Below, in pieces: positions 1,560 to 42,612 of a stretch of DNA of 64,000 nt (positions are counted from its first letter, which is position 1; every line of letters begins with the position of its first letter). The stretch covers positions 1-64,000 of the forward strand of contig NZ_JHBV01000007.1 in NCBI RefSeq assembly GCF_000724545.1, in the 5' to 3' direction. A program made the translations under genes and the position numbers. The notes beneath the pieces were generated by a model. It saw nothing but the letters and a program-made list of their open reading frames with translations. It had not been told where the DNA came from and made no database searches. Source of the stretch: Aureispira sp. CCB-QB1. GTDB taxonomy: Bacteria; Bacteroidota; Bacteroidia; Chitinophagales; Saprospiraceae.

Positions 1560-1578
1560 CCTTATAATCATTTCTACC

Positions 1579-1974: not shown

Positions 1975-2909
1975 CTACTATTGCTTTATGTGATGGTTGC
2001 TATTCAACTTATATTGATCTAGTTGATGAATAAAGGGCTCAATTGTTATATGTCCTAATGTCAATATTCAATGGATTGCGAATGTCTATACAGATCGTCT
2101 TTGAACTATTAATAGATTGTTATTAAGTGAGTTGTCATGCCGTATCGTAAGAATAGGTCTTTTGTACGGAAACTTTTGAGACAATTACGTAAGTCTATTT
2201 CTATTTTTGAATCTAATATTATTAGGTTAAGGGGACACCCTTGCCTAGTGTAAGTGGTTGCTTAATAGTTTGTTTAAGAGATTTGTATCGTTGTTAGTAA
2301 AACCAAGAGGTATAAGTATGAGGTGTCATTAGTTTGGGTGAACAATACCAATGAACTCATGATGTCTTCCTTTCCAATAGAATCAGCACTAAATTTAATA
2401 TTAAAAATAAGATAGGTCTATGTACTAGATCTCTAGACTAAATGCTAATCAATTAATGGTAGCATTATATCCAGCTTAAATGTCATATTTTGATATGCAT
2501 ATAGGCTAAGGTTTTTATTGTCTAAGCTCAACCTAATGCAAATTAAGCAAGTCAAGCCATGGGCATGATGATAGGAGAGTACTAGAGCTTTTGGGTATAC
2601 GAAATTCAGAATGTTTACTCAGTTGATCTAAACGACACAAAATGCACTTAGTCCTGTGTTCTTTGAGCGCTCAAAGGATACTTTATCACTAGAATAAGTA
2701 AAAGGTCAGAAAAAATAAGAACAAAAAATGGGATTATTTTTTTGTTAATCAAAGAAGAAAAAGGAAGGCTGTTTTAGCTACGCTGCTACTGCGTGGTGCT
2801 TGTTATTTTTTTTGAACGATTACTTAGCTACTTAGTATTTAACGAAATATCTAAGTACAGGATTCTTATGTCCTTTTATACCTAAAAATTTTTCTATAAA
2901 AATTGTATT
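1975..2909 (+). other. 935-base gene-free stretch upstream of the TonB receptor
   Basis: Stop codons are dense in all frames and I find no credible ORF. The only structured element is the composite repeat at 2774-2826. I looked for a cobalamin-type riboswitch, which often precedes Bacteroidota TonB receptors, and saw none of its conserved boxes. The stretch is unusually long compared with other gaps in the window. Confidence 0.6.
2774..2826 (-). repeat. Composite intergenic repeat (family A core plus GAACGATTACTTA)
   Basis: Bases 2774-2797 are the reverse complement of the family A core CCACGCAGTAGCAGCGCAGC plus TAA, with one change. GAACGATTACTTA at 2814-2826 follows after a T-rich spacer. 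The same arrangement recurs at 19937-19989. Confidence 0.75.
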
Positions 2910-5243
2910 ATGAAAAAAGCAACTATTATTTGTCTAATGGCTTTTATGGCCATTATAACCCCTCAGTTAATTATCGCTCAAACTACAACTGTTACAGGAA
3001 AAGTTGTAGATGGACAAACCCAAGAACCTTTGGTTGGAGTGAATTTGTGGATTGAATCAAAAACGACAGGTTCTATAACCAATACAAATGGAGAATTTGC
3101 GCTAACGGCAACGGCTTCTGATATAGTAAAGATTTCCTTTATTGGTTACGAAATACAAGAATTAACAATAAGCGAATTGCCACCTATAATACGATTAGAA
3201 CCAAGCATAGCCGAGTTAAGTAAGGTTGTTGTTTCTGCTAGTCGAAATCAACAAGATCGGGCAGAAGCCCCCGCAGCGATTGCGGCTGTAACGGCAACGA
3301 CGATTGATGACACTAGAGCTACTTCTTTGGATCAACTACTCAACAAAACACCTGGTGTTTTTATGGTAGATTTGGGAAATGAGCAACACAGTATGTCCAT
3401 TCGCCAACCGTTGTCTTACAAAAGCTTGTTTTTGTATTTAGAGGATGGCTTACCCATTCGCCCAACAGGTGTTTTTAATCATAATGCCTTGTTAGAAATG
3501 AACCAAGCCAACATCCGACAAATAGAAGTCATTAGGGGACCTTCTTCTTCTTTGTATGGAAGTGAGGCAATAGGAGGAGCCGTTAATTTTATTACTTTAC
3601 GCCCAACTTCTATTCCTACAGCAAGTATCCGATTGCAAGGAAACACCTTAGGATACAAACGAGTAGACTTGAAGACCGCTACTACTATTGGTAAATTGGG
3701 GCTTGCTTTTTCTGGATATTACGCCAATCGAAGAAACGGATTTAGAGCGCACAGTGATTTAGATAAACTGGGAATGACTTTTAAAGGGACGTATAAGGTT
3801 TCTGAAAAAGATTTTTTATCGGCTGATGTCACTATGATTGACTATAAATCGGATATGACAGGCAGCTTGGATAGTGCACGTTTTTATAGTCGAGAATACA
3901 GTTCGCTTCATACTTTTACCAATCGTGCTGTTTGGGCATTGCGTTCCAAAGTTCAATACAAACGTTATTGGACAGATCAAGCCAAGACGAGTGCGACTAT
4001 CTTTTTTAGAGACAATTCCATTCGACAAATCCCCTCGTATCGGGTTAAAGACGATTGGTCGCCTTGGGGAAATCCAACAGGAAATAAAAATTTGGCACAT
4101 GGAGAAAGCAATAACAATAGCTATAAAAGTTTTGGAGCGTTGGTACAACATCGTCAAGAGTTTGATTTTTGGCAAACAGCACTGACCGTAGGTGCTTCTA
4201 TAGATGTAAGTCCCAATACTTACCAAGCAAATTATATTTCTATTGTTAAAAATGATGAAGGGGTTTATACCGATTATGTTAATGAAGTAGATTCTATGCT
4301 GACCAATTATGAAGTGGGATTGGTAAATCCTGCAGGTTACGTTCAATTAGAAATGACACCTTTTAGAAATTTTAAATTAGTAGCTGCTGCTCGTTACGAT
4401 GCTTTTATTTATAATTATAATAATCATCTTCCTACTACGGCATTTTCAGGTGCTCCAGATAATGTAGATCAATTCTGGGCATTAACCCCAAAAGTTGGCG
4501 TTACCTATAAAATTGCCAAAACATCTGGTGTATATGCTAATTTTAGTCAAGGTTTTGTACCGCCTCAAATTGGAGAGTTGTACAGAGGAGTAAGTGTTCC
4601 TGTTTTAAAACCTGCTACTTATAATAATTTTGAATTGGGAAGTTGGATCAATTTGCTAAAAGGAAAACTACATTTGGATTTGAGCCTCTATTTGATGGAT
4701 GGATTTAATGAAATTATCTCTGTTCGTCAAGACAATGGTGCGTCTATTAATCAAAATGCAGGACAAACTAGGCATATGGGGGTAGAGTATGGAGTTTATT
4801 TTAGTCCTATCAAAGATCTTTCGATTCGAGTGACTGGATCTAATGCTGCTCATGTTTTTATAGATTATAAAGAAAGTGGAAACGACTATACTGGAAATAG
4901 AATGGCACAAGCGCCTACTTGGCTATTGAATGCAGAAATAACTTACAAACCACGATTTATCAAAGGGTTCCGTATTAGCCTCGAAATGATGCACATGAAC
5001 CAATATTATATGGACGCTGCGAATACTAAAACTTACCCTGGATTTTTAGTTTTTAATGGTCGTGTAGGCTATACGATCAAAGGATTTGAACTATGGTGCA
5101 ACGTAATGAATTTTACCAATCAACTGTATTCCCCCAATGCTAGTTTGTCTAGGTGGGGAGAAAGACTAACGGTAGGAAACCCTATCCATCTGAATGTGGG
5201 GGTTGGATATAACTTTGTTGCGGGTATGTATAAGAAGCAATAA
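2910..5243 (+). CDS. TonB-dependent outer-membrane receptor (metal/siderophore type)
   Basis: A 777-residue receptor that imports a scarce ligand across the outer membrane using TonB energy. It has a signal peptide (1-24, ending IIAQ), a carboxypeptidase-regulatory-like domain (about 27-105, with VTGKVVDGQTQEPLVGV), a plug domain (about 115-230, with LLNKTPGVF and IEVIRGPSSSLYGSEAIGG), then a long beta-barrel rich in alternating aromatic strands. Its size is like that of siderophore, heme and copper receptors rather than the larger SusC class, and no SusD partner follows. The small Cys-motif protein upstream and the PepSY protein downstream point to ferric-siderophore or another metal ligand. 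The exact ligand cannot be read from sequence. A strong terminator-like hairpin follows the stop codon. Confidence 0.9.
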   Translation: MKKATIICLMAFMAIITPQLIIAQTTTVTGKVVDGQTQEPLVGVNLWIESKTTGSITNTNGEFALTATASDIVKISFIGYEIQELTISELPPIIRLEPSIAELSKVVVSASRNQQDRAEAPAAIAAVTATTIDDTRATSLDQLLNKTPGVFMVDLGNEQHSMSIRQPLSYKSLFLYLEDGLPIRPTGVFNHNALLEMNQANIRQIEVIRGPSSSLYGSEAIGGAVNFITLRPTSIPTASIRLQGNTLGYKRVDLKTATTIGKLGLAFSGYYANRRNGFRAHSDLDKLGMTFKGTYKVSEKDFLSADVTMIDYKSDMTGSLDSARFYSREYSSLHTFTNRAVWALRSKVQYKRYWTDQAKTSATIFFRDNSIRQIPSYRVKDDWSPWGNPTGNKNLAHGESNNNSYKSFGALVQHRQEFDFWQTALTVGASIDVSPNTYQANYISIVKNDEGVYTDYVNEVDSMLTNYEVGLVNPAGYVQLEMTPFRNFKLVAAARYDAFIYNYNNHLPTTAFSGAPDNVDQFWALTPKVGVTYKIAKTSGVYANFSQGFVPPQIGELYRGVSVPVLKPATYNNFELGSWINLLKGKLHLDLSLYLMDGFNEIISVRQDNGASINQNAGQTRHMGVEYGVYFSPIKDLSIRVTGSNAAHVFIDYKESGNDYTGNRMAQAPTWLLNAEITYKPRFIKGFRISLEMMHMNQYYMDAANTKTYPGFLVFNGRVGYTIKGFELWCNVMNFTNQLYSPNASLSRWGERLTVGNPIHLNVGVGYNFVAGMYKKQ

Positions 5244-5252
5244 TTTGAAGTT

Positions 5253-5336
5253 GGGACTGTTCTGTTGTGTCTTTATGTTTGTTATTCAGGTTACTGTTTA
5301 TACAAAATAACCTACAACAGGCAGTCCATTTTTTGT
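5253..5336 (+). terminator. Nested hairpin with T-run after the TonB receptor gene
   Basis: Three nested arm pairs can be drawn: GGACTG 5254-5259 with CAGTCC 5322-5327, CTGTTGT 5262-5268 with ACAACAG 5314-5320, and AGGTTA 5288-5293 with TAACCT 5308-5313. The stem is followed at once by ATTTTTTG. It would end or attenuate transcription before the PepSY gene. Confidence 0.7.
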
Positions 5337-5371
5337 GAACTAGTGGCTTTTTGAAAGCCTATTTAAAAGCA

Positions 5372-5422
5372 ATCGTCTGTCTTAGATTAGAATGTCTTAA
5401 AGGTTGAGGAAAGACGGATGAT
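5372..5422 (+). other. Imperfect inverted repeat in the leader of the PepSY gene
   Basis: ATCGTCTGTCTT (5372-5383) pairs with AAGACGGATGAT (5411-5422), with one mismatch and one G-T pair, and ends 15 bases before the start codon at 5438. It could be an operator or an RNA hairpin controlling translation. The role is inferred only. Confidence 0.4.
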
Positions 5423-5437
5423 TATACGATCAAAATC

Positions 5438-6850
5438 ATGTTTAAAAAAATATATCAATGGCATCATCGTATTGGGTTGCTTGTTTCTATACCTGTATTG
5501 GGATGGTGCATTAGTGGTTTGACGCATCCAATGATGGCGCATTTATTTAAAATAAAACCTGCTCAACGCTTTGTTGTGCCCCAACCAGTTGCTTTGGACA
5601 CAACTAGCATTGCTTTGGGAGAAGCTTTGGAGCAACATGGTATCACATCATTTAGTAATTTTAGATTGGTGCACTTTGAGAAAGAAACCTATTATCAAAT
5701 TATCAGAGAGGGAAAAGAAACAGAGTATATTAATGTTAAGAATAACACATTGTTAAACAATGGAGACCAACGTTATGCGGAATATCTAGCGCGTTACTTT
5801 TTAGGCGATGAGCAGCATCCAATTGCCAGCTTAACAAAGCTAAACCAGTTTACCTTCGAGTATAAATTTATCAATCGACTATTGCCAGTTTATAAGGTTT
5901 CTTTTGATCGTTCGGATGGTATGGATGTTTATGTAGAAACGAATAGTTCTAGGCTGGGAACAATGAACAACCGAACAAGAAAAATTTGCATTGCTATTTT
6001 TAGTTATCTCCACAATTGGAATTTTTTGCAAGGGATGCCAAAACTAAAGCTTTTCTTAATGCTTTTATTTATGATCATGGCTTTTGGGGTGGCTTTTAGT
6101 GGTTTGGTCATCTATGGTTTTTTATGGAAACGAGTATTTCCTACTCATGCTGTCGAAGCTAAGAACCGAAAATGGCACCGTCGCATTGGTTTAATGGTGG
6201 CTATTTCAACACTGGGGTTTGCTTTTAGTGGTGGTTATCACGCGTTGGCTAAAGCAAATACTGCACAAGTTATTTCTGAAAAAGCACCTGTTTTTTCTTC
6301 TACAGAGGTAAAGCAGCTGCCTGCTTTGGTTCGTAAAATAGGGGATCGTTTGGTAAAAAATATTTCTATTGTATCGATAGACCAAGTCAACTATTTTCAA
6401 GTAGATTGGATGGAAAAAGCAACAGAAACCAGTTATTTTAAAACGACTACTTTAGAACATTTAGGAAAAGGGGAGGAACGTTACGCTATTTACCTAGCGA
6501 ATCAATACACACAATTGCCTGCTAAAAAAATTGTCTCTGTAACTCCTATTCAAGCATTTGGTGGAGAATATGGTTTTATCAACAAGCGTTTGCCTGTTAC
6601 TAAAATTCAATACGATACCAAGCAGCAACATAGTGTGTATGTAGAAACTTCTTCTGGCAAATTGGCGGCAACTATTTCTGCTTCAAAACGCTTGGAAGCA
6701 TTTAGTTTTTTAATGTTACACAAGTATCATTTTATTGACCCAATAGGAAAAACAGTTCGAGATATTATTATTGTAATTATAATGATAGGAATTATTTTGG
6801 TAAATGTTTTGGGAATTGTTTTGTGGTTGAATAGACCAATAGTTCGTTGA
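5438..6850 (+). CDS. PepSY-associated membrane protein with internal duplication
   Basis: A 470-residue inner-membrane protein of the PepSY-TM type, often encoded with siderophore or metal receptors and proposed to act in ferric-ligand reduction or handling. It has four hydrophobic helices (about 12-32, 203-228, 246-268, 440-463). The halves are clear repeats: QWHHRIGLLVSIPVLGW aligns with KWHRRIGLMVAISTLGF, and FEYKFINRLLPVYKVSFD with GEYGFINKRLPVTKIQYD. Each half has His residues at the start of its first helix (H9, H10) and before its last (LHNWNF and LHKYHF), candidates for heme or metal binding. The gene ends inside a repeat copy that supplies the last codons and the stop. The receptor-PepSY pairing supports a shared uptake route. 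Confidence 0.85.
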   Translation: MFKKIYQWHHRIGLLVSIPVLGWCISGLTHPMMAHLFKIKPAQRFVVPQPVALDTTSIALGEALEQHGITSFSNFRLVHFEKETYYQIIREGKETEYINVKNNTLLNNGDQRYAEYLARYFLGDEQHPIASLTKLNQFTFEYKFINRLLPVYKVSFDRSDGMDVYVETNSSRLGTMNNRTRKICIAIFSYLHNWNFLQGMPKLKLFLMLLFMIMAFGVAFSGLVIYGFLWKRVFPTHAVEAKNRKWHRRIGLMVAISTLGFAFSGGYHALAKANTAQVISEKAPVFSSTEVKQLPALVRKIGDRLVKNISIVSIDQVNYFQVDWMEKATETSYFKTTTLEHLGKGEERYAIYLANQYTQLPAKKIVSVTPIQAFGGEYGFINKRLPVTKIQYDTKQQHSVYVETSSGKLAATISASKRLEAFSFLMLHKYHFIDPIGKTVRDIIIVIIMIGIILVNVLGIVLWLNRPIVR

Positions 6851-6864
6851 AACCACGCAGTAGC
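6837..6864 (+). repeat. Family A repeat, 5' half, overlapping a stop codon
   Basis: CAATAGTTCGTTG (6837-6849) then CCACGCAGTAGC (6853-6864) matches the left part of the full element seen at 25259-25298 (reverse strand). The TGA stop of the PepSY gene (6848-6850) lies within it. Confidence 0.7.
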
Positions 6865-6936
6865 AAAGAAGTAATCAATAGCCAAGTAGCAGTGTATCTA
6901 ATTACTAAAAGATAGCGAATAGCCATTTTTTATACT

Positions 6937-6981
6937 AAAAAAATGGAGTTTGCAGAAGTAGAATTACTTAGCAAACTCCAT
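6937..6981 (-). terminator. Rho-independent terminator for the large receptor gene
   Basis: Perfect 11-base arms ATGGAGTTTGC (6943-6953) and GCAAACTCCAT (6971-6981), followed on the minus strand by seven T (6937-6943 read in reverse). It lies about 115 bases beyond the stop of the minus-strand receptor gene. Confidence 0.8.
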
Positions 6982-7040
6982 ACCTTTATAACAATACAAA
7001 TCTATGATAGATATAAGGCTTTAAGGTTTAGTTTTTTTGT

Positions 7041-7088
7041 CAATAGTTTGTTGGAACCACGCAGTAGTAGCGTAGCTAATAACTATTG
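7041..7088 (+). repeat. Family A repeat, full-length copy with inverted ends
   Basis: The core CCACGCAGTAGTAGCGTAGC starts at 7057. It is bounded by CAATAGTT (7041-7048) and AACTATTG (7081-7088), perfect inverted ends that define the element. Confidence 0.8.
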
Positions 7089-7095
7089 TTTGTTA

Positions 7096-10000
7096 TTAAA
7101 ATGAAAAACTTACTCCCAAGAAAATTCTACGAGGACGAGAAATATTGAGAGGGTTGTTCATGCGCAAATTGTATAACATCTCGTAAGAATCTGGTTGAGA
7201 AGCAGCAAAACCAGGTCCAGAGCTATTGGCTGTTGTCAAAAATCCGTCGTCATAAGGAGAACCCGTAACTGGATAAACAGCGTGTACATTTTGGGTGTTC
7301 AGCAAGTTGGTAATACGTAGATAAACGTTTAAGTAAAGTGGATTTTTTGAATTTTTTCCAATAACAAAGCTGCGATCTAACTTCATGCCCAAGCGGAAAT
7401 TCCAAGGAGTTCTTGCTCCATTGATACTACCTTCTGTAATTCTGTCAGAGAAACTATTTCCAACATCTCCAGGAATTCTTTTTCTAGTATAAGGACGTCC
7501 AGAGTTGGCATTAACACTAACACTCAAACCTGTGTTTCCAAATAATTCAAAGTTGCCAATTTTAGGACCAAAATATTTATCGCCACTTTCGAAGCGGTAA
7601 TCAATATTGGCGTAAAAAGTATGACGTTGATCAAAATCCAAGGCAAATACATATTTTAATTCTTCGGCTGCTACTCCTGTAGAAGATACTGGATTAGAAC
7701 CTGTTCCCTCCGAAAATTGCAAGGCATAGTTGGCAATAATTCTAAGGTTTTTGTGGCGTAGCGTTTCGTATTCTAACTTAAATGCTTTGGTGGTAGAAAA
7801 ATCATCGTTTCCAAACGTAGAATAAGTATTAGGATAAGCATTGGTATATTGTTGTACTTGAATCAAATCACGCTCCTCTTTGTATACCATAGACACTTTT
7901 ACTTTAGAAAACCTTGTTAATGCTTGTTGAAAACCGACTTCGTAGTTAATAGTGCGTTCTGGTTTCAAATTAGGGTTGCTGATAATGCCTCCTCCATTTG
8001 TTATTTCTCTAAAGTTGTAATAATCCAATGCAGAAGCATAAGCACCTACAGGCGGACGTTGAGATAAAATATCGTAATTAGCATAGAAATTAGATTCATT
8101 AGAAATTGGGAAAGAAATAGAAATACGAGGCATTACGATGACAGTAGGTTTATAATCTACAAATGCTTTGTTGGGATCATAGTTTTGACCTTGAGGATCT
8201 ATCTCTGAAGTACCAAATCCTTTTAAAGCAGGAATAAAGTTAGCTCCTAACTCGCTTGCTGAATTAACAGGGAGACCTTGTGCATTGTACCATTGGTTGC
8301 CATCTCGATAACCAACAACATTAGCATCTTTAGTATTTTGATTGACATAAACGGCGAAGTTATCACCAATATTACTAGGTCTGTTGTACTCCGATGTTTT
8401 TCCCGCATCGTACAAAGAAGAGCTACTTTCAAATTCCGCTGCTGTTTCATAACCTGTGATACTGTAAGGGTCTTTCAAAACACTGGTATTGGCATCATAA
8501 CTATCGAAGCGAACCCCAAAATTGCAGATGATGTCTTTGTAAACAAATTTATCTTGAATGTATCCTGCCAAATAAATCGGCTTGTGAGGAGCAACTGGAC
8601 GTGTTTTGATGCCATTGGCATCCGTTGCCGTAAAGAAATCATTAAATTGAACATTGGCTCCCAGTGGGTTTCCTTTATAGTCATAACCATAATAATTGAT
8701 AATTCCTTGACTACCTGTAATAAGCGTTGACGGTTCAAACCATTCCAATTGCATTTGATCTGGTGTTAATTCGTGGACAGATATCCAATCTCTTTTGTCA
8801 TATCCCAGTGCTTCTCTCAAATTTTTTCCAAATTCAGTCATGGCAGTTTCATTCCCTTCGGCATCTTTTCTGATTAAACTTTCATACAATTGATAATTGC
8901 GTTGTGTAAAAGGGTCGTAATAACTTTCACCAGTAGGGCGAGAGCGATCGGTTGCATTAGAAATATGTGCATTGGTAGTTTGATAAGCAAAACGCCATAA
9001 TGCAAATGGATTGATGTTGTAGCTACGCTCGATGCGTTGCTCAAACGTTCCCCCTAATTGCAATTGATGACGAATAGGGTTACCTGAACGTTGATTGGTA
9101 ACCAAGTCAAAATTGACTTGAGCGTTTCCACGTATTTGCGATTGATTGCTTTTGCTAAATCCAGCGCCTGTTTGGTGAGGAGCATTATACAAACCGTAAA
9201 TACTGTTGCGACTTCCTGTATTCAAACCATTGATAACCTCCATCTGATTGAGATTAGTTGGTACATCTGAATTCAGAGGGTCTGGTTGAGGAATCAAATT
9301 ATTATAGGCAGCCAGACCTGGATTAATGTCCCAATTCGGTTCGTATTTATCAAACGCATTAAAGAAAGAAGCGTGCCCCGTTTGAGCTTTGTAAGCAATA
9401 ATCTCTCCTTGAGAATTATAAATAGCCAGAGAGTCTACGACTCCAATAACAGGACGTCTACTTTCGTAGAATTTCCCAACATAACCATATTCCCAAAAGC
9501 GATTCCCATAACGAGCATCTTGCGATTCAAAGTTGGTTTGATTGTAACTCGCTGTTAATTCATAACTAAGGTTTTGAAAGGCAGGTTGCAAACTTTTTTC
9601 ATCTTGTTCTTCATCTGAATAATCTGGAATCGTAGAGTTTACGACATGCCTAAAACGGGCATTAAAACCAAGGTTATTTGATTTTCTATCAGGATTAAAT
9701 TCATAGTTTAGGAGTTGATTGCCAATGGAAGCTGTTTTTCCCCAATTAAAAATACCTTCTGAACCAATTGTAAGAAAGAATTCTTGAGAAGGCTTATATT
9801 CTATGGTTCCTGAATACTGTGCATAAGAAGAACGAGCATTGGAGCGAACATTTGTTTTTTCAAAATCATCTTCTGTCAAAAAATCAGTGGCATACACAGA
9901 CCCAGCGCCATTAGGATTAGCAATCAAAGGATTGGCTAAGATTTCTTTTCGCTTTTCATCTTTGAGTTTTAAGGTACTCAAAGCCGATGGGCGAGGATCT

Positions 10001-33716: not shown

Positions 33717-34502
33717 TTAAATAGGTTCACCAATTAGATACATTTTATTCCCTGCTTTTCCTTTTATAATGCCCTTTTTCCATGTATAATTATCAGAAGG
33801 TAATTGTGCCAAAATTTCATCCCAATCGGCTAGGGTGTAGGTTCTAGCGTTAGAAACGGCGCCATCCCAAGCAATAAAAATGGGAAGTAAAGGAATTAAA
33901 TAAGTAAAAATGATTTGTCGAAAACTGAGAGGTCGAACAAATGGCGTAAGAAAAAAGACCATTAAGAAACTTGTAGGGATGGCTAACCACCAAAGAATAA
34001 ACGGCAGGCTATTGTCACTAATCTCATAAATACAAATTGGCTGTCGATCCTGTTGTGCAGCACGAAGAATGTTTTGTGCTGTTTCGGGACGCATATGATG
34101 CATACTACAAACCATGGTGCGAAGACCTTCTTTCCCTTTTGAAACATTGGTTGCATCTACAGGCTCGGTTAGGTAACTAAGGTTCGGGTCTTTTTGCGCA
34201 TTAATTTGGGCTGCAACTTCTGTATTGGGGTAGAGGTCTGTCAAAGTTAAGGACAAGTTAGAAAAATCATATTGAGTTTCTAAAACTTGTTTAACCTCTT
34301 CCATTGGTCCTCCAGCACCTGAACATAGGTCTATAATTTGATGCGTATTCGTTCTTTTTAAAACAGGAGCAAGTAGTTGCGCTACATCATCTGCCGATCC
34401 CAACAATCGATGCATGGTGAGGATGTAACGAGTCATGCTCATTCTCAAAAAATTAGGAAACCAGTGAAAGTCTTCAAACTCAAATAGGTGGATGCGTTTC
34501 AT
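33717..34502 (-). CDS. Methyltransferase-like protein with membrane segments
   Basis: A 261-residue protein from the ATG at 34502; the TTG at 34541 is a weaker start. The N-terminal half has a class I SAM-methyltransferase pattern: IIDLCSGAGGPMEEV (motif I), TLTDLYPNTEV (motif II acidic residue) and EPVDATNV. The second half contains two hydrophobic helices (about 165-185 and 195-215), unusual in a soluble methyltransferase, before a C-terminal strand KGKAGNKMYLIGEP. A membrane-bound substrate such as a lipid or quinone is therefore likely, by inference. It is probably co-transcribed with the hydrolase downstream. Confidence 0.7.
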   Translation of the reverse strand: MKRIHLFEFEDFHWFPNFLRMSMTRYILTMHRLLGSADDVAQLLAPVLKRTNTHQIIDLCSGAGGPMEEVKQVLETQYDFSNLSLTLTDLYPNTEVAAQINAQKDPNLSYLTEPVDATNVSKGKEGLRTMVCSMHHMRPETAQNILRAAQQDRQPICIYEISDNSLPFILWWLAIPTSFLMVFFLTPFVRPLSFRQIIFTYLIPLLPIFIAWDGAVSNARTYTLADWDEILAQLPSDNYTWKKGIIKGKAGNKMYLIGEPI

Positions 34503-34676
34503 AGTGGTATGATATTTCAATTTAGCGAATAGAGATGCCAATAGTAAATTTATAATTTTTATAAAATCAAAGGAACAAAAATTCTATTAAAATGATTGTA
34601 TTGTTGTATTTTACATCATACAATTTACGAGTATCAATTCTTAAGAACGATTATTTACTATAAATCTTTAAAAACT

Positions 34677-35219
34677 ATGTTCGATTGGTTTTTTAATTTA
34701 TTTAAAACAAAAAAAGAGGAAGAAGAGCCTATAAAAGTTGACTACAGTGTGCATGATTTGGGAACAGGGTTTCTTCTGGATTACAATATGGAAAGTTGGG
34801 AGGTTTTGGCTTCTTATACTTACCGCTACAAAGGGTATTCATCCAAAGAATATAAAATTAGATCAAGCTCAGAAACAAGATTCTTGAACGTGTCGGATAG
34901 CAATAGTTTGTTATTAGGACTTAGTAGAGAAGCGAATATTAATAACATAGATAGCGGTTTGCGTTCTAGTGTTGCTATGGGGCAACCTTTAACACGGATT
35001 ACTTGGAATGGAGAAACGTATTCGTTGAAAGAGTCTGCCAAAGGACAGTTTGCTGATGATGCGATACAAGATTGGGCTAATTTTTCTAGTTGGGAGTATG
35101 TTAATGCAGCCAATACGAAGTTTATTTATGTTTCCAAATGGGAAGATAATTCGATAGAGTGTTATGTTGGAGAGTACCTTAAAGAACATGAAATTTCAAA
35201 TATCTTAGCGAGTACTTGA
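34677..35219 (+). CDS. DUF4178 domain protein, first gene of the spermidine-synthase-like cluster
   Basis: A 180-residue protein from the ATG at 34677; an upstream in-frame ATG would add a non-conserved head. A short amphipathic start (FDWFFNLFKTKK) is followed by the DUF4178 pattern: VHDLGTGFLLDYNMESWEV, YTYRYKGYSSKEYKI, ITWNGETYSL and FIYVSKWEDNSIECYVGEYL. The family is beta-rich and of unknown biochemistry. In other bacteria DUF4178 genes recur with DUF350 and spermidine-synthase-like genes, exactly as found here, so I regard it as part of one pathway with the next five genes. The next gene follows after 18 bases. Confidence 0.8.
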   Translation: MFDWFFNLFKTKKEEEEPIKVDYSVHDLGTGFLLDYNMESWEVLASYTYRYKGYSSKEYKIRSSSETRFLNVSDSNSLLLGLSREANINNIDSGLRSSVAMGQPLTRITWNGETYSLKESAKGQFADDAIQDWANFSSWEYVNAANTKFIYVSKWEDNSIECYVGEYLKEHEISNILAST

Positions 35220-35237
35220 AGGTCACGTAAGAGTGGT

Positions 35238-35936
35238 ATGAGAAAAGGATGTGGAATCTTGTTCTTATTTATGTTGGTTTCTCTGTTTTTAAACCTCTTG
35301 CCCTTTAGTTGTAATAATGCTGATATAACCGAAGACCCCGTTCGATTATTGATCGAACAAGAGTCGATGGAGCCAATGTTCACCATATTGCTCTTTGATA
35401 TGGATCAAGAGGGTGTTTTTTCTAAGACGTACAAACATCGTTATCGGGTTATTAAAGAAGAAAATGGTAAGGTGGTTGGCAAGGATACCAAATGGTACAA
35501 TGTGCCTTCTAGTTATTTTCAGCAGAATGAAAATAATTTAGGTATGGAAATGGCGGCTAAAGATAGTACTGGAAAAATTGCTCGAACAATAGGACCACCT
35601 GGTTATACCAACTACATCGGAAATCCTAGATACGGTTATTGGGGAGATGGTACAAGCCAGCCTGATTCGTTGTCTAACAATGGTGCCAATGTGGCGACTA
35701 ATTTTTGGTATTTTTATCCTAAATACACCAATATTCGAGAATTGCTACAACTTCCAGCAGGTAAGATTTATCAAAAAGACCACAAAGAGGCTAGAAATTA
35801 TTACAATCGAGGATTTATTTACTACGGAATTATTACCTCTGGAGGACGGCGTAGGTATGGAACGTATAGCAACCACTATCGTACGAATACTTATAACAAA
35901 CGATGGTCTAGAGGGGGAGGAGGATATGGAAAGTAG
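35238..35936 (+). CDS. Secreted, probably lipoprotein, component of the spermidine-synthase-like cluster
   Basis: A 232-residue protein with an N-terminal hydrophobic segment (about 6-22) ending LLPFSCNN; C25 could be a lipidated cysteine although the lipobox is not ideal. The body is polar with many Tyr and Asn, and the C-terminus is a Tyr/Arg/Gly-rich tail (RRRYGTYSNHY, SRGGGGYGK). Comparable clusters elsewhere contain an extracytoplasmic lipoprotein with a Gly-rich tail (DUF4247 or DUF1190 type); this protein takes the same place, although I cannot assign it to those families by sequence. It probably sits on the periplasmic side of the membrane. Confidence 0.65.
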   Translation: MRKGCGILFLFMLVSLFLNLLPFSCNNADITEDPVRLLIEQESMEPMFTILLFDMDQEGVFSKTYKHRYRVIKEENGKVVGKDTKWYNVPSSYFQQNENNLGMEMAAKDSTGKIARTIGPPGYTNYIGNPRYGYWGDGTSQPDSLSNNGANVATNFWYFYPKYTNIRELLQLPAGKIYQKDHKEARNYYNRGFIYYGIITSGGRRRYGTYSNHYRTNTYNKRWSRGGGGYGK

Positions 35937-36074
35937 TTGCTCGTTGTCTTGGGAAGCGTACTTTTATCTTATCAAAGGTGTTTAAATGGAATGTCAATAA
36001 ACATTATTGTGTGGTTCCCACGAAGTGATTTTATGTAATTTTTGCCAAAGTACTAAGGTTAAATTGAATTAAAA

Positions 36075-36935
36075 ATGAAAGAATATCTAGAAGTCAGTTA
36101 TTGGGGAGAACCTTTTATTTATATGTTGGTAGGGTTTCTCTTATTTTTGAGTGGAAAGTTGTTGTATCAATTGCTACACAAAGGAGTAGATGTTGATGCA
36201 GAAATGGTGGATAAAGATAATCTAGCATTTGCAGTCACTCATGTGGGGTATTTTGTAGGATTGTTGTTGGCAATATGTGGCTCTATGTCTGGTATCAAAC
36301 ACGATTCGTTAATACATGATATAGGAATTACAATGGGATTTGGTTTGGGAGCCATTGTCCTGTTGAATATAGCGATTATTATCAACGACAGAATTATTTT
36401 TGGTGGCTTAGAATTGAAAAAAAGCATTGTCGAAAAGGGAACAGTTGCTGTTGGAATTGTAGAATCTGCTAATTCTATTGCCAATGGTTTAATTATTTAT
36501 GGAGTACTAACAGTAGAGTCGGAACATATTTTTGTTGCCTTAGTTTTTTGGTTGGTGGCACAAATTTTAGTGATTTTTATGGCAATGGTTTACAATAAAA
36601 TCATGCCCTATGATGTGTTTTCAAAAATCTATGCAGGCAATGCGGCTGTTGCTGTTGCTTTAGCAGGTTTTTTGGTTGGAATGGCTAATATTATACGCTA
36701 TGCAATAGAATCGGAGCACAGCGATTGGGCAGAATCTGCTGTTGCAATAGGCATCCAACTCGTAGTCGCAATGATTGCGTTTCCTGTTTTTCGTTTTTTG
36801 ACAGACAAACTTTTATTGCCTAAGAGAAGTATTACAGATGAATTGGTTCATCAAGAAAAACCTAATTTTGGTGTCGGCTTGGTAGAAGCATTCGCTTATG
36901 TTAGTGCTTCTGTATTAATTATTATTTCATTGTAG
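36075..36935 (+). CDS. Tandem DUF350 membrane protein (YjfL-like)
   Basis: A 286-residue integral membrane protein with about eight hydrophobic helices. It is two DUF350 units joined: NLAFAVTHVGYFVGLLLAI (about 46-64) corresponds to NAAVAVALAGFLVGMANII (about 193-211), and VGIVESANSIANGLII to VGLVEAFAYVSASVLII. Single-unit relatives such as E. coli YjfL have about 130 residues and four helices. The role of DUF350 is unknown, but it recurs beside polyamine-synthase-like enzymes. The next gene starts 21 bases after its stop. A 138-base gap upstream may hold an internal promoter. Confidence 0.88.
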   Translation: MKEYLEVSYWGEPFIYMLVGFLLFLSGKLLYQLLHKGVDVDAEMVDKDNLAFAVTHVGYFVGLLLAICGSMSGIKHDSLIHDIGITMGFGLGAIVLLNIAIIINDRIIFGGLELKKSIVEKGTVAVGIVESANSIANGLIIYGVLTVESEHIFVALVFWLVAQILVIFMAMVYNKIMPYDVFSKIYAGNAAVAVALAGFLVGMANIIRYAIESEHSDWAESAVAIGIQLVVAMIAFPVFRFLTDKLLLPKRSITDELVHQEKPNFGVGLVEAFAYVSASVLIIISL

Positions 36936-36956
36936 GGTATCGCTGATAGAAGTAAA

Positions 36957-38513
36957 ATGGAGGATCGGAAAAAGGGACATTCTTTGATATTAATGACCGC
37001 ACTTTTTGCAACAGGTCTGTCTGGAATTGTAGCAGAGTATGTATTAGCAACGTTGGCAACTTACTTTTTGGGCGACTCGGTTTTTCAGTGGACGATCGTA
37101 CTTTCTCTAATGTTGTTTTCAATGGGACTGGGCAGTCGTTTTAGCCAAAATTTTAAGAAAAATCTATTAGAGACATTTATAGTTATAGAGTTAATTCTTT
37201 CTATCTTAATCTCTCTTTGTGCCCTTATTACATACCTAATTATGCCTTATACTACTAGTATTTGGTTGGTCATGTATTTAATGGCAATTGTGATTGGTCT
37301 GTTGATTGGGATGGAAATTCCCTTGGTAACTCGAATCAATCAAGATTACAAACCATTGCGTACCAATATTTCTGGTGTAATGGAAAAAGACTATTATGGC
37401 AGCTTATTTGGAGGCTTGTTTTTTGCGTTTATTGGTATTCGTTACTTGGGTTTAACGTACACGCCCTTTGTTGTTGGAGGAGTCAACTTCTTTGTTGCTT
37501 TGTTGTTGTTTTATTATCTAAGAAGAGTCATTATTATCGAAAAAAAAGGGCGGTTGCAATTCGGCTTTGCGATTACTGGTGCCATCTTAGCCATTGGACT
37601 ATTTCTAGCCGAGCCAATTGTCTTGTTTGGAGAACAGAGTCGTTATCGAGAAAAAGTAGTCTTTACCCAACAAACGCCTTATCAAAAAATTACTGTTACC
37701 CAGTGGCAAGGAGATTATTGGTTGTACCTCAATACAGGCAAACAACTAAGTACCTTTGATGAATGGATGTACCACGAACCATTGGTGCACCCAGCGATGC
37801 AATTGGCAAAGTCGCACAAAAATATCTTAATTATGGGAGCAGGGGATGGCTGTGCCATACGAGAGGTATTAAAATACAAAGATGTTGAACGTATTGTGTT
37901 GGTTGATTTGGATCCAGAAATGACGGAGATTGGAAAGAATCACCCTATCTTCAAGCAGCTGAATCAATCGGCTTATTTTTCACCTAAGTTGGAAGTGATC
38001 AATGCGGATGCCTTTAATTATGTAGAGTCTACCAAGGCTTTCTATGATGTTATTATTGCCGATTTTCCTGATCCCAAAAGTGTAGAAGTCAATCGACTAT
38101 ATACCCGAGAGTTTTATCAAATTTGCAAAAAAAGATTACGCCCCAACGGTGTATTTATTACTCAAGCTGCCAGCCCTTATTATACCACCAAAGCATTTAG
38201 AACCATCGAAAAAACAATCAAAGCAGCTGGTATGAATGTTGTCCCTATCCACAACCATATTTATACGTTTGGAGAATGGGGTTGGGTGATTGCCATGAAA
38301 GAACCGCCTTCGGAAGCTATAAAAAAAGAACTACAAACGCTGACGTTTGAGGGAATTGATGTTCGATGGATTAACCAAGAAAGTATGTTAATGATGACTT
38401 CTTTTGGAAGGGATTTGGTAAAGGTAGATACGGCAGATTTGGAAGTAAATACCATTCATAATCCTGTTTTGTATCGTACCTATGCAGAAGGGAACTGGTC
38501 GTATTATTTTTAA
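36957..38513 (+). CDS. Membrane-bound polyamine aminopropyltransferase (spermidine-synthase-like)
   Basis: A 518-residue protein: about seven membrane helices (1-225) fused to a spermidine-synthase domain (about 230-475). Landmarks are DEWMYHEPLVHPA (268-280), the decarboxy-SAM binding loop GAGDG (294-298), VDLDP (316-320), the acidic NADAF (349-353), catalytic-region IIADFPDP (367-373, with D369) and LYTREFY (381-387). Classical SpeE transfers the aminopropyl group of decarboxylated SAM to putrescine; membrane-fused relatives probably act on other or membrane-associated acceptors. No SAM decarboxylase is nearby. Its stop is 2 bases from the next start, implying strict co-expression. Confidence 0.9.
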   Translation: MEDRKKGHSLILMTALFATGLSGIVAEYVLATLATYFLGDSVFQWTIVLSLMLFSMGLGSRFSQNFKKNLLETFIVIELILSILISLCALITYLIMPYTTSIWLVMYLMAIVIGLLIGMEIPLVTRINQDYKPLRTNISGVMEKDYYGSLFGGLFFAFIGIRYLGLTYTPFVVGGVNFFVALLLFYYLRRVIIIEKKGRLQFGFAITGAILAIGLFLAEPIVLFGEQSRYREKVVFTQQTPYQKITVTQWQGDYWLYLNTGKQLSTFDEWMYHEPLVHPAMQLAKSHKNILIMGAGDGCAIREVLKYKDVERIVLVDLDPEMTEIGKNHPIFKQLNQSAYFSPKLEVINADAFNYVESTKAFYDVIIADFPDPKSVEVNRLYTREFYQICKKRLRPNGVFITQAASPYYTTKAFRTIEKTIKAAGMNVVPIHNHIYTFGEWGWVIAMKEPPSEAIKKELQTLTFEGIDVRWINQESMLMMTSFGRDLVKVDTADLEVNTIHNPVLYRTYAEGNWSYYF

Positions 38514-38515
38514 TT

Positions 38516-39601
38516 ATGTGGTTGTTCTCCAAACATATAGATTTAGCAGCCTTATACCTCCCTATATGGTTGTGTTGGATGGTGTTATTTAATTTGCCTT
38601 CAGAATATTTGCAAGCAGATATTCCACTTTGGGTTTGGGTGCTATTTGTTTTGTGTATTGATGTGGGACATGTGTGGAGCACCATTTTTAGAACCTATTT
38701 AGACAAAGAAGAATTTAGAGAACACAAAACGTTGTTGATGGTGGCTCCCTTAATTAGTTTTGTTGTTGTTGCAACGATTGCTTTTATTTCCACCTTTTGG
38801 TTTTGGCGATTATTGGCTTACTTGGCTTTGTTTCATTTTGTAAAGCAACAATACGGATTTTTGGCATTGTATAAGATGAAGGCACAAGATTTTGGAATCA
38901 AAAAAATCTTTCAAGATAAATGGGTGTTGTACTTAGCAACACTGTACCCTGTTGTTTATTGGCATTTTGCCGAAGGACTTTATTTTAGTTGGTTTGTAAC
39001 AAATGATTTTATTAACCTTCGGTCTTTATTTGATATTTCTTCTCGATTTTGGGTGCTTTTTTTTCAACCTTTAAACATTTTGTATTGGTTGATTATCATA
39101 GCTTGGACGGTCGAAGAATGGCAACGTTCTCACAAAGTCAATACAGGAAAAATTCTATGGATGTTGACAACGGCTATTAATTGGTATGTGGGAATTGTCT
39201 ATTTTAATTCAGATTTGGCATTTACCGTTACCAATGTGGTTGCACATGGCATACCTTATTTGACCTTGATAATTTATTATCAATACCAAAAAAAAGGAAT
39301 AAAAGGAGATGGATTAACAACAGCATATCGAGTGGCTGCGGCTATTTTGCCTGTCGTTTTTTTCTTGGGCTGGCTAGAAGAGTATTTTTGGGATATGCTT
39401 ATTTATGGAGATCGAGGATACTTTTTTGGTGCTGTCATTGCTTACCCATTTGACTTGTTGCAAAGTCCTTTAGCCCAAGCTATTGGTATTGGTTGTTTAG
39501 CATTGCCACAATTGACCCACTATATCATTGATGGGTTTATTTGGAAATCAAACGAGTCAAACCCCTATGTCAGACAGATATTTAAAAATGGATCAAAATA
39601 G
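38516..39601 (+). CDS. Polytopic membrane protein with conserved-looking His motifs
   Basis: A 361-residue protein with about nine hydrophobic helices and no family I can name. Histidines lie in suggestive places: DVGHVWST (about 50-57), LFHFVKQQYGF (about 105-115), VAHGIPYL (about 247-254) and LTHYIIDGFIWK (about 338-349). Spaced His motifs at helix ends are seen in membrane di-iron desaturases and hydroxylases, so a metal-dependent oxidase is conceivable, but the spacing does not match a known class. It starts 2 bases after the aminopropyltransferase and ends next to the FAD oxidoreductase gene, so it probably works between them. Confidence 0.75.
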   Translation: MWLFSKHIDLAALYLPIWLCWMVLFNLPSEYLQADIPLWVWVLFVLCIDVGHVWSTIFRTYLDKEEFREHKTLLMVAPLISFVVVATIAFISTFWFWRLLAYLALFHFVKQQYGFLALYKMKAQDFGIKKIFQDKWVLYLATLYPVVYWHFAEGLYFSWFVTNDFINLRSLFDISSRFWVLFFQPLNILYWLIIIAWTVEEWQRSHKVNTGKILWMLTTAINWYVGIVYFNSDLAFTVTNVVAHGIPYLTLIIYYQYQKKGIKGDGLTTAYRVAAAILPVVFFLGWLEEYFWDMLIYGDRGYFFGAVIAYPFDLLQSPLAQAIGIGCLALPQLTHYIIDGFIWKSNESNPYVRQIFKNGSK

Positions 39602-39605
39602 CAGT

Positions 39606-41126
39606 ATGAATCGACGTGAGTTTGTAAAATTTGGAGCTTTGGCATTAAGCCCTATCTTGGTTAAGTTTTTGAATGATTGGACGCAAGGAACGACTGAAAA
39701 TGATTTTGATATTGAAATTTTATCCGATGCAGGAGTCGGACATTTGCTTTGGGAAAGCAAGGATTATCCTCAAGGAGAAACCTTAGAAACTTCTTATTTG
39801 ATAGTTGGAGGAGGTATTGCAGGGTTGAGTGCCGCTTATGAATTAAAGAACGAAGACTTTTTACTCTGTGAATTATCGGATTATTTGGGAGGAAGCTCTT
39901 CCGCCAATACGCACCAAGATCAATACTTTTCTCAAGGTGCACATTATGACTTGGCTTATCCAAAGTATTATGGAAAAGACTTGTTGGAGGCTTTATTTGA
40001 CTTGGATATTATTGATTATAATTACCAAAAAGAAGAATGGGTTTTTGTAGACAAACAATTCCTGATTCAACCCAAGAAAGCAAGTCAAAGCTTTGATCAA
40101 GGTATTTTTAGGGCAGATGTATTGCCAGAAGGAAAGCTCAAAGAAAGTTTTGAAGCCTTATTGCGTCCTTTTGTTGGTCAGATGCCCATGCCTACCACTT
40201 CCATATCAAGAGAGTTTCATTATTTAAACCAACTTACTTTCAAGGAGTTTTTGGAACAGCATCTTACCTTAGATGATGCTTTTGTGCAAGCCATAGATTA
40301 TGCTATGTTAGATGATTGGGGAGCTACTTCTGAGGTTGTTTCTGCGTTGGCTGGAGTACATTATTATACCTGTCGATCGTATTTTGATGGGAATCCAGAA
40401 CTTTTTTCCCCACCGCAAGGCAATGCTTATTTTGCTCAACAATTTATTCGAAAAATTCCACAAGAACGCTTATTAACCAATCGCTTGGTAAAGCAAATAG
40501 AGCGTTCCTCAACAGGCTTTAGTGTGAACGTTATAGATGTCAAACAAAAAAAGATTGTCACCATCAAAACTTCAAAGATTGTCTATGCAGCACACAAACA
40601 CGCTTTAAAATACATCTACCCAGAAGCTTATCCTTTGTTTCAACAGACAACATATGCCCCTTGGATTGTTGTCAATATTGTGCTGAATAAAGCCGTTACA
40701 ACGCCTGTTTATTGGCAGAATGAATACCTTTCAGGAGAACAAGCTTTTATGGGCTTTGTCGATTCGGGGGCACAGTACCAACCCTTGACGACTAGAAGAA
40801 CTTTAACAGCTTATTATTGTTTGCCAACGGAACAACGAAAGGAGTTATTAAACATAGAACAAATAGCTCCCTCGTTGGTAGAACAAAGTATTGTTGCTAT
40901 AGAAGAGGTGCTGCAACAGTCGATTCGACAGGATATTGAAAAAGTTTACATAAAAGCAATGGGACATGCCATGCCGATTCCAAAACCTCACTTTTTGCTT
41001 CAAAACCATAATGCCAATGCTAGGGATACAGGAATTGCCTATGCTGGAGTCGATGCTGGGCACTTGCCTTTGTTTTTTGAAGCCGCTAATTCTGGCTTGC
41101 AAGCTGCTCGTTTGTTAAAAGGGTAG
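39606..41126 (+). CDS. Tat-exported FAD-dependent amine-oxidase-like oxidoreductase
   Basis: A 506-residue flavoprotein. I choose the ATG at 39606, 4 bases after the previous stop, because it gives a short twin-arginine signal NRREFVKFGALALSPIL; ATG 39588 and 39528 are alternatives that overlap the previous gene. The FAD-binding Rossmann motif is LIVGGGIAGLSAAYEL, followed by LCELSDYLGGSS (the amine oxidase/phytoene desaturase pattern), and a C-terminal FAD motif GIAYAGVDAGHLPLFFEAANSG. The family includes polyamine oxidases, so oxidation of an aminopropylated product is a reasonable but unproven role. It is the last gene of the cluster. Confidence 0.85.
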   Translation: MNRREFVKFGALALSPILVKFLNDWTQGTTENDFDIEILSDAGVGHLLWESKDYPQGETLETSYLIVGGGIAGLSAAYELKNEDFLLCELSDYLGGSSSANTHQDQYFSQGAHYDLAYPKYYGKDLLEALFDLDIIDYNYQKEEWVFVDKQFLIQPKKASQSFDQGIFRADVLPEGKLKESFEALLRPFVGQMPMPTTSISREFHYLNQLTFKEFLEQHLTLDDAFVQAIDYAMLDDWGATSEVVSALAGVHYYTCRSYFDGNPELFSPPQGNAYFAQQFIRKIPQERLLTNRLVKQIERSSTGFSVNVIDVKQKKIVTIKTSKIVYAAHKHALKYIYPEAYPLFQQTTYAPWIVVNIVLNKAVTTPVYWQNEYLSGEQAFMGFVDSGAQYQPLTTRRTLTAYYCLPTEQRKELLNIEQIAPSLVEQSIVAIEEVLQQSIRQDIEKVYIKAMGHAMPIPKPHFLLQNHNANARDTGIAYAGVDAGHLPLFFEAANSGLQAARLLKG

Positions 41127-41145: not shown

Positions 41146-42612
41146 TTAATTTGGATGGTAATAAATCAAAGGCTTTTGAGTAATGTTCCAACGATGCAAC
41201 ATTTTGGACTGTGGAGATATGTATTGATGAGGAGGAATTGGTTCCCAAGATAAGATGCTGCAATCAGGAATTAAAACAGGTTCCTCGGTAGCCTCTGATA
41301 GTTGAAATAAGGTGCTTCGTTCACAACTATTACGAACAGGATAAAGGGACAAGGAATCGATTATAGTAACCAATGTAACAACGGCTAGAATGGCTGTTTT
41401 AAGTTTTTGAGCAGAAGATTTGGAAAGTGATTGGAGCAATAAATTAGCAGTAGCTCCTAATAGAATAAAAAGTCCAAATGTAATCGGAAGCATCGTGTCA
41501 AATCGGATGATTAAATTGCGGTAGCCTCGATAACCGCCAAAAGGAAGCAATACGGTGTAAATGAGAATGAAGATTATAATGTATTTTGCAATCGTTAGCA
41601 GCTTTTTTAAGGCATCCGATGGGTGATAACGGTGTAAAAAATAGAGGGCAATGGTTGTCAATATTACAATGGTCAGAGGTGTTGTTTTTACTAAAAATAA
41701 AATCTTAAAGATGCCCGCAGCTAACAAATCAAATCGCTCTAAGACACTAGGAAGTGCTGTTGGATTCTCAGTGTTAAATGTTCCTAAGTAAAACGAGTAT
41801 AGCCCCAGTAAGATGATCCATCCAAAATGAAATAAAATAGGGCGTGGAATTAATGAGATAGCTTTGACAAATTGAGTGACACCGTACCCAGGTTGTTGCT
41901 TAAAATTATGCCACCACAAACCCAATAAGGCTAAAGAACTAATTAAGATAGCGGTAGGAGCGTTGATTGGACCATTAAAAATAACAACAAAAGATAACGT
42001 TATTAAAAGGAGGTGTTCCCACCATTTGAATTCAAGGGGACGCGTTTGACAATACATTTTAACAAAGGGGTGCATATAGGCTAGCAAGGCTAACAAAGAA
42101 AAAGCATAGGCAAAGGTATAGATAATGGATTGGTCTATGACTCTCATTGGAAATAGGAAGCCATAAGGAGAAGCCAAAGACAGGGAGCCAAGTAAAGCAA
42201 AAATAAATAAAAATCTTTCGTGGAAAAAAGGTATTCTGGGAGTCACCCAACTAGTTAAAATATACGTAATCCCAATGTGAGTGAATAATTTGTGGATAGC
42301 ACAAGAGACATAAACACTATCAACTGGATGAATGAAATTTTGTAAAAATAAAGGAAAATGATTAAAGTAAAGGTATGAAAACCAATGCAAAAAGAAACGA
42401 TTGGGACCAGTATGTGTTTCTCCACTAGATAGCATTTTGAAGCCTAAAGGGTCAGACAAAACAGGGGCATATTCTTCTGATGGAAGAACCATATTGGCTA
42501 AGTCTCCTAATAGTGGTGTTTGGAGAAAACAAAAATAACTGGCTATTAAATCAATTATAATAACTAGTATAATGAAGTATCGTAGTGTTTGGTTAGAATT
42601 GTTTTGATGCAT
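41146..42612 (-). CDS. Polytopic membrane protein of unknown function
   Basis: A 488-residue protein with about eleven hydrophobic helices spread over residues 12-425 and a soluble tail. An acidic residue pair sits in the first loop (GDLANMVLPSEEY) and aromatic residues are frequent, in the style of GT-C-fold membrane glycosyltransferases, but I see no diagnostic motif. It converges on the FAD oxidoreductase gene with only 19 bases between stops. No operon partner. Confidence 0.65.
   Translation of the reverse strand: MHQNNSNQTLRYFIILVIIIDLIASYFCFLQTPLLGDLANMVLPSEEYAPVLSDPLGFKMLSSGETHTGPNRFFLHWFSYLYFNHFPLFLQNFIHPVDSVYVSCAIHKLFTHIGITYILTSWVTPRIPFFHERFLFIFALLGSLSLASPYGFLFPMRVIDQSIIYTFAYAFSLLALLAYMHPFVKMYCQTRPLEFKWWEHLLLITLSFVVIFNGPINAPTAILISSLALLGLWWHNFKQQPGYGVTQFVKAISLIPRPILFHFGWIILLGLYSFYLGTFNTENPTALPSVLERFDLLAAGIFKILFLVKTTPLTIVILTTIALYFLHRYHPSDALKKLLTIAKYIIIFILIYTVLLPFGGYRGYRNLIIRFDTMLPITFGLFILLGATANLLLQSLSKSSAQKLKTAILAVVTLVTIIDSLSLYPVRNSCERSTLFQLSEATEEPVLIPDCSILSWEPIPPHQYISPQSKMLHRWNITQKPLIYYHPN

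Follow-up and report, generated by a model that had tools for sequence, protein, structure and literature searches.

A membrane-fused aminopropyltransferase accompanied by a flavin enzyme and an unnamed polytopic protein in Aureispira sp. CCB-QB1 and distant bacteria

We analyzed a stretch of 64,000 nucleotides (contig NZ_JHBV01000007.1, positions 1 to 64,000; the window below) from the 7.37-Mb genome of Aureispira sp. CCB-QB1. Six open reading frames (ORFs), all on the + strand, lie within positions 34677-41126, and they include the gene for an aminopropyltransferase fused to a transmembrane (TM) part (TM-SpeE, or the SpeE fusion). The initial annotation of this DNA had given the order, family types, and gaps of the six genes, and the ORF listing, Pfam, and NCBIfam confirmed all of these (Table 1). 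We refer to the unnamed polytopic protein as POLY and to the gene or protein of the twin-arginine translocation (Tat)-type flavin enzyme as FAD; labels of the form L### and G### denote loci and genomes of this analysis. FAD likely starts at 39606 (MNRREF), judging by a start shared with three of four aligned genus mates. With this start, the intergenic gaps are 18, 138, 21, 2, and 4 bases; an alternative in-frame ATG at 39588 gives a 14-base overlap with POLY. According to the initial annotation, the six-gene unit would be accidental if the last two genes rarely co-occurred with DUF350/SpeE-like genes in related genomes. This check did not refute the unit: both genes track the SpeE fusion across phyla, in linked and in unlinked form.

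Table 1. Genes of the six-gene cluster in the window, with lengths in amino acids (aa)
Feature	Position	Strand	Evidence
DUF4178 protein, 180 aa, probably cytoplasmic	34677-35219	+	Pfam PF13785 1.2e-17
Lipoprotein-like protein, 232 aa, Cys past N-terminal hydrophobic stretch (LPFSC)	35238-35936	+	sequence, hydropathy
Membrane protein with double DUF350 (YjfL type), 286 aa	36075-36935	+	Pfam PF03994 4.7e-45, over two segments
Membrane-fused aminopropyltransferase (TM-SpeE), 518 aa	36957-38513	+	NF002956/PRK03612, Pfam Spermine_synth 2.5e-40
POLY, unnamed polytopic protein, 361 aa	38516-39601	+	38-row alignment, predicted model
Tat-type FAD protein, amine oxidase superfamily, 506 aa	39606-41126	+	Pfam Amino_oxidase 1.1e-08, NRREF start

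Of eight genomes of the genus (that of CCB-QB1 included), five have POLY, FAD, and the SpeE fusion together, and three lack all of them; one of the three (G004) is 92% complete. The six-gene order is intact in two more genomes of the genus (L044 and L048), and in L045 the contig ends before SpeE. In another genus mate (L046/L047, three contigs), five genes stand together, and FAD (L046, 4507-6030, - strand) is found on the opposite strand at a distance of about 24 kb.

We then searched a phylum sample of 395 genomes, own genome included, which was the same set for all three proteins. The E-value thresholds were 1e-50 for the SpeE fusion, 1e-30 for FAD, and 1e-50 for POLY. Scoring was limited to the few top candidates of each genome, and further copies may therefore have escaped notice. 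The SpeE fusion was found in 29 genomes, FAD in 15, and full POLY in 11. All 15 FAD genomes carried the SpeE fusion, and all 11 POLY genomes carried FAD. The hypergeometric chance is about 1e-19 for the first association and 2e-18 for the second, or 2e-10 and 3e-09 when counted by genus, the only level at which kinship was allowed for. FAD lies no more than 1.1 kb from SpeE in each of the 15 FAD genomes. The reverse rule, that a SpeE fusion always comes with the tail, was rejected, as FAD is missing in 14 of the 29 genomes with a SpeE fusion. At 1e-3, there were 23 POLY matches, from which we set aside 12: a 77-aa fragment and 11 partial matches (1e-14 to 7e-10). The two partial matches that were examined (L074 and L081) represent a distant family, described below.

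Scanning of GTDB contigs with POLY alone gave 46 loci, and 44 kept POLY on rescoring (L130 and L131 failed). We found that the SpeE fusion and FAD are contiguous with POLY in 34 of the 44, which extend from Bacteroidota into Bdellovibrionota. Thirty-one of the 34 lie outside the genus; the other three (L086 to L088) are known genus mates, on the same contigs as L045, L044, and L048. The initial annotation had asked whether the polytopic protein and the flavoprotein always follow the aminopropyltransferase. In the linked loci, the order of these two varies: 12 have the order SpeE-POLY-FAD seen in the window, and in the other 22 POLY follows FAD (SpeE-FAD-POLY). Some of these genes are incomplete. 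A contig end truncates SpeE in L091, L106, and L126; POLY is split over two reading frames in L119, L121, and L124, as is FAD in L119 and L124. As for the loci outside the linked group, eight of the 44 have POLY with neither SpeE nor FAD nearby, FAD adjoins POLY at a contig edge in L118, and in L129 (a Bdellovibrio) POLY stands by a divergent SpeE while a full cluster lies elsewhere in the genome (L176). This second, divergent set at L129 (Bdellovibrio sp. 28-41-41, 1577-8780) encodes two proteins that resemble POLY (9e-21 and 3e-13), one that resembles SpeE, and another of 266 aa.

Unlinked genomes were examined as a separate set, made up of the genomes of the eight loci with POLY apart and of L129, plus that of L118 for the FAD search. 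The FAD family was present in 9 of these 10 genomes at an E value of 2e-110 or better (8 of 9 without that of L118). The SpeE fusion was present in 9 of 9 at 5e-156 or better. The set includes Spirochaetes, where the three genes are scattered; the figures for that phylum are raw counts. FAD and SpeE are convergent neighbors in G453, and FAD adjoins a double DUF350 gene in G451.

The two gene orders draw on similar parts. In front of the SpeE-FAD-POLY genes, we found SpeD in 19 of 22 loci, DUF4178 in 21, and DUF350 also in 21, here as a single domain of some 70 aa (Pfam, 2e-14 to 8e-15 in the three tested). L106 begins inside SpeE, and the front genes are missing there. SpeD comes directly after FAD in L095, L126, and L127. 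Thus, both branches hold largely the same ingredients in different arrangements. We also built a SpeE tree of 35 rows by a quick method, with support from the Shimodaira-Hasegawa-like approximate likelihood ratio test (SH-aLRT) only. In it, the eleven SpeE-FAD-POLY rows form one starred branch.

The initial annotation had treated the six genes as a single unit. The gene 33717-34541 (- strand) diverges from the cluster and the gene 41146-42612 (- strand) converges on it, so the six genes form one + strand unit, and the tail is associated with the rest as described above. A promoter scan gave 29 matches against a mean of 23.0 (standard deviation [sd], 4.7), which is near chance, and a terminator scan gave 9 against 5.1 (sd, 2.1); neither was used as evidence. 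The unit turned out to be composite. L093 and L128 each have two SpeE fusions, one in a SpeE-POLY-FAD set (module B) that faces another in a DUF4178-lipoprotein-DUF350-SpeE set (module A). In the SpeE tree, the module A copies of these two loci make a starred pair of their own, and the module B copies group with the window type. Because the two modules have separate SpeE paralogues in L093 and L128, we read the window unit as the two modules combined around a common SpeE.

All four parts of module A (DUF4178, lipoprotein, double DUF350, and TM-SpeE) were found together in the window with Pfam and NCBIfam, the lipoprotein-like protein itself having no Pfam family above cut-off. Relatives of this lipoprotein adjoin DUF350/SpeE in L087, L088, L093, L095, L097, L127, and L128. 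At L049 (5009-6418), a hydrophobic stretch joins DUF4178 to a lipoprotein-like part within one 470-aa protein, which suggests that DUF4178 and the lipoprotein cooperate across the membrane. DUF350 and the SpeE fusion follow in the same order as in the window, and the next genes encode a rhomboid protease and then a potassium channel of the TrkA type.

The window SpeE fusion scores 549.8 bits over residues 5-515 against NCBIfam PRK03612 (NF002956), which is above the cut-off of 472; the family name is annotation only. Across 35 SpeE rows, chosen from the retrieved fusions with cut copies and close kin omitted (alignment A5), Y272, H273, E274, G294, D369, P371, and D372 are invariant. They include the YHE motif and a D-x-x-D pair, among which are residues that we take to be catalytic in spermidine synthases. 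The conserved stretch aligns with the Thermus thermophilus aminopropyltransferase (3anx/1uir). The SpeE domain also matched the PADLOC defense model mad2 (3e-20, residues 284-458); this match, which probably reflects just the shared Rossmann fold, was not taken to indicate a defense system. In the literature searched, we found neither an activity test of the membrane form of SpeE nor a stated product for sets of membrane SpeE and DUF350.

SpeD is encoded away from the cluster in the same genome, where it is joined to a different SpeE, and SpeD fused to SpeE was found in seven of the eight genomes of the genus. Judging from these genes, the presence of SpeD here and in 19 of the 22 clusters of one order would be compatible with aminopropyl transfer from decarboxylated S-adenosylmethionine (SAM).

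FAD was aligned in 30 rows (A3; omitted were L086 to L088, L108, L111, L112, L114, the broken L119 and L124, and the partial L118). An N-terminal RRxF is present in 25 of the 30, and the other five have KRGEF (two), RRDEF, KRSEF, or KRKEF. A Cys past the hydrophobic stretch was seen by eye in 19 rows, and the pattern used found it in 7. The RRxF start and this Cys suggest that many FAD proteins are probably Tat-exported lipoproteins, and the Tat-exported oxidoreductase proposed by the initial annotation agrees with the export-type start and with a predicted fold of polyamine oxidases. In an AlphaFold model (predicted local distance difference test [pLDDT] score, 87), the top Foldseek matches, ranks 1 to 9, are to the spermidine dehydrogenase SpdH (best, 2.5e-21), with a template modeling (TM) score of 0.61 by query length for a fold common to the whole amine oxidase superfamily. 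Putrescine oxidase comes next, followed by monoamine oxidase and protoporphyrinogen oxidase. Among PDB sequences, a profile search placed an amine oxidase first (6e-13). On the strength of the model, we liken FAD to SpdH by fold and do not class it as SpdH.

POLY was aligned in 38 rows (A4), namely the window, four genus mates, and 33 loci. Outside A4 are L086 to L088 (represented by L045, L044, and L048), L108, L111, L112, and L114 (close kin), L119, L121, and L124 (broken frames), and L129, L130, and L131. Eleven positions are invariant: D49, H52, H107, Q111, Q112, H150, H244, E288, E289, H335, and D339. The predicted model is confident and all-helical (pLDDT, 90.7), and the DxxH, HxxxQ, and HxxxD spacings on its helices suggest a metal or catalytic site. 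The window protein alone had zero Pfam or NCBIfam matches, and the 38 rows matched these databases at chance level (three families, one member each, E of 0.002 to 0.007). No match was found among PDB sequences with the single protein or the profile, and the model had no solved relative among PDB folds (best E, 0.65). We considered Brp/Blh beta-carotene dioxygenase (PF15461), which is likewise polytopic with conserved His and Asp residues. We rejected this candidate, as profile comparison found no relation to POLY (hhalign probability, 0.1). Of the 18 stretches read for the BCD alignment, 17 are in it; L204, for which a frame other than the matching one had been found, was excluded, and L201 and L211 are not among the 18.

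The L074 protein (390 aa) and its L081 kin are related to POLY distantly but along its whole length (hhalign probability, 99.3), and they have no Pfam match. In an alignment read by eye, this family keeps D49, H52, H107, Q111, H244, H335, and D339. Both are larger His-rich polytopic proteins (L074, 847-2019, - strand; L081, 2-1144, + strand). In L081, the gene after the POLY relative resembles, by eye, tryptophan 2,3-dioxygenase. In L116, from Spirochaetes, POLY is flanked on one side by a zinc-ribbon protein and on the other by two flagellar sheath genes of the FlaA type, as identified with Pfam; L117 and L120 have a similar arrangement, judged by gene sizes.

Since the SpeE, FAD, and POLY genes occur together in many distant bacteria, they probably specify an undescribed route to a modified envelope amine. 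We found no description of membrane SpeE linked to this FAD family and POLY in the literature searched, most of it non-subscription. We somewhat favor the reading that the cluster is a dedicated envelope pathway in which an amine is aminopropylated at the membrane and the product is oxidized outside the cytoplasm. Starting from the observed gene association, the family assignments, the Asp pair of the transferase, and the export-type start of FAD, we infer the reactions, their order, and the role of POLY as follows. SpeD, whose gene is in the same cluster in many relatives, would supply decarboxylated SAM. The SpeE domain would transfer the aminopropyl group onto an amine that the TM part of the same protein either retains within the inner membrane or carries to its other side. 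At the outer face, the Tat-type FAD enzyme would oxidize the SpeE product, and POLY may work with it, in a second and probably metal-dependent step or as an electron partner. DUF350, DUF4178, and the lipoprotein, the known envelope module, would couple the enzyme to the state of the membrane. As the SpeE acceptor, we lean slightly toward a free polyamine passed outward rather than a lipid head group.

Several observations weigh against this dedicated pathway. On the genomic side, a distant fusion resembling SpeE (1e-12) is present in G007, a genome scored here as fusion-negative; G419 has the 77-aa POLY fragment with neither FAD nor a SpeE fusion; and G457 has POLY and a SpeE fusion with a weak FAD match (2e-10). 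POLY does not stand beside FAD in 4 of 15 genomes (G061, G268, G347, and G434), contrary to the fixed succession that the initial annotation had looked for. A SpeD match (AdoMet decarboxylase, PF02675) is missing in 3 of the 13 SpeE-fusion genomes that were searched for it (G010, G012, and G042); none of the three has FAD, and G042 is 75% complete. On the protein side, the L090 SpeE lacks the N-terminal part and the GGGDG motif, yet POLY and FAD adjoin it. No characterized relative of POLY was found. The monoamine and protoporphyrinogen oxidase folds score similarly to the other FAD matches. PigB, an oxidoreductase of prodigiosin precursor synthesis, is the best NCBIfam model for FAD, matched by all 30 rows far below cut-off. 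These PigB matches and the other oxidase folds make a different FAD substrate possible.

A stronger form of the proposal, which we put forward tentatively and hold to be possible rather than likely, is a widespread undescribed pathway for a new aminopropylated, oxidized amine, either a polyamine derivative or a lipid. POLY would then found a new membrane metal-enzyme family, the larger superfamily of the L074/L081 type being unnamed too. Another reading, possible but rather unlikely in our judgment, is that no new compound is made: TM-SpeE would make and export an ordinary polyamine of the spermidine type, and FAD and POLY would degrade or trim it in the periplasm, so that the cluster would regulate how much polyamine is present at the surface when the envelope is stressed. 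Consistently with this, the FAD model is closest to SpdH, and the accessible parts of the literature propose conversion of thermospermine to norspermidine by SpdH in the Pseudomonas aeruginosa periplasm (PMC11107197), review the coating of the outer membrane by polyamines (PMC9746822), and place DUF350/SpeE modules near stress genes (PMC11237479). However, an ordinary polyamine leaves unexplained the multi-His POLY, which in the sample occurs only alongside FAD and the SpeE fusion.

We consider it improbable that the acceptor is a membrane lipid or a non-polyamine amine and that FAD acts on the head group or on a PigB-like ring, with a lipid- or pigment-like product. The fusion of SpeE to a TM part, the polytopic nature of POLY, and the PigB matches of the FAD rows would fit such a product. 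Those matches, however, are confined in the window protein to the FAD-binding part in addition to their low scores, and no lipid or pigment synthesis gene was found among the Pfam-scanned neighbors, a minority of all neighbors. A chance arrangement, with the last two genes unrelated to the aminopropyltransferase, would accord with the distant FAD of one genus genome and with the scattered genes of the Spirochaetes genomes seen, and it is hardly credible given that the genes co-occur both in the 395-genome sample and where they are unlinked, and that they adjoin each other in either gene order on two SpeE branches that have diverged.

The dedicated envelope pathway can be compared with two described systems. 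The first is an operon of a seven-TM (7TM) SpeE, an 8TM DUF350, a lipoprotein, DUF4178, and a dyad of CesT/Tir and PspA, given in the accessible part of Ravi et al. (2024; PMC11237479), which places DUF350/SpeE modules among stress genes. The initial annotation had stated that DUF350/DUF4178/SpeE-like combinations are known elsewhere, and the first four window genes do match this operon, with the lipoprotein equated with Ctha_1186 by description. Module A is therefore already described, and the tail is the new part. The dyad of that operon is absent from the window cluster. In the genome of CCB-QB1, PspA is encoded by two genes on contigs C4 and C27, away from the cluster, and each adjoins the gene for a 136- to 137-aa protein that resembles, by eye, the PspA dyad partner. 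The accessible part of that paper names no POLY-like protein, and it names a polyamine oxidase only in variants with an ATP-grasp ligase.

The tail adds to this known set. Linkage, unlinked co-occurrence, and fold tie one set of membrane SpeE fusions to POLY and to an enzyme that is probably exported and has a polyamine oxidase fold. Dyadobacter fermentans and Crocinitomix catalasitica (loci L114 and L127) are among the named species concerned, and this link narrows the question of what membrane SpeE makes. The second system is SpeD2-SpeE2 with SpdH of P. aeruginosa. According to the accessible part of PMC11107197, SpdH bears a Tat signal, and periplasmic SpdH is proposed to oxidize the SpeE2 product to norspermidine, in a hypothetical route for the cell surface. 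That part states neither a membrane part for SpeE2 nor clustering with SpdH. SpdH has 620 aa, compared with 506 aa for the window FAD, and POLY belongs to the window system only. Both systems would have an aminopropyltransferase inside and a Tat-type FAD enzyme with an SpdH-like fold outside. By analogy, the window cluster would resemble the route proposed for SpdH, with its enzymes encoded together.

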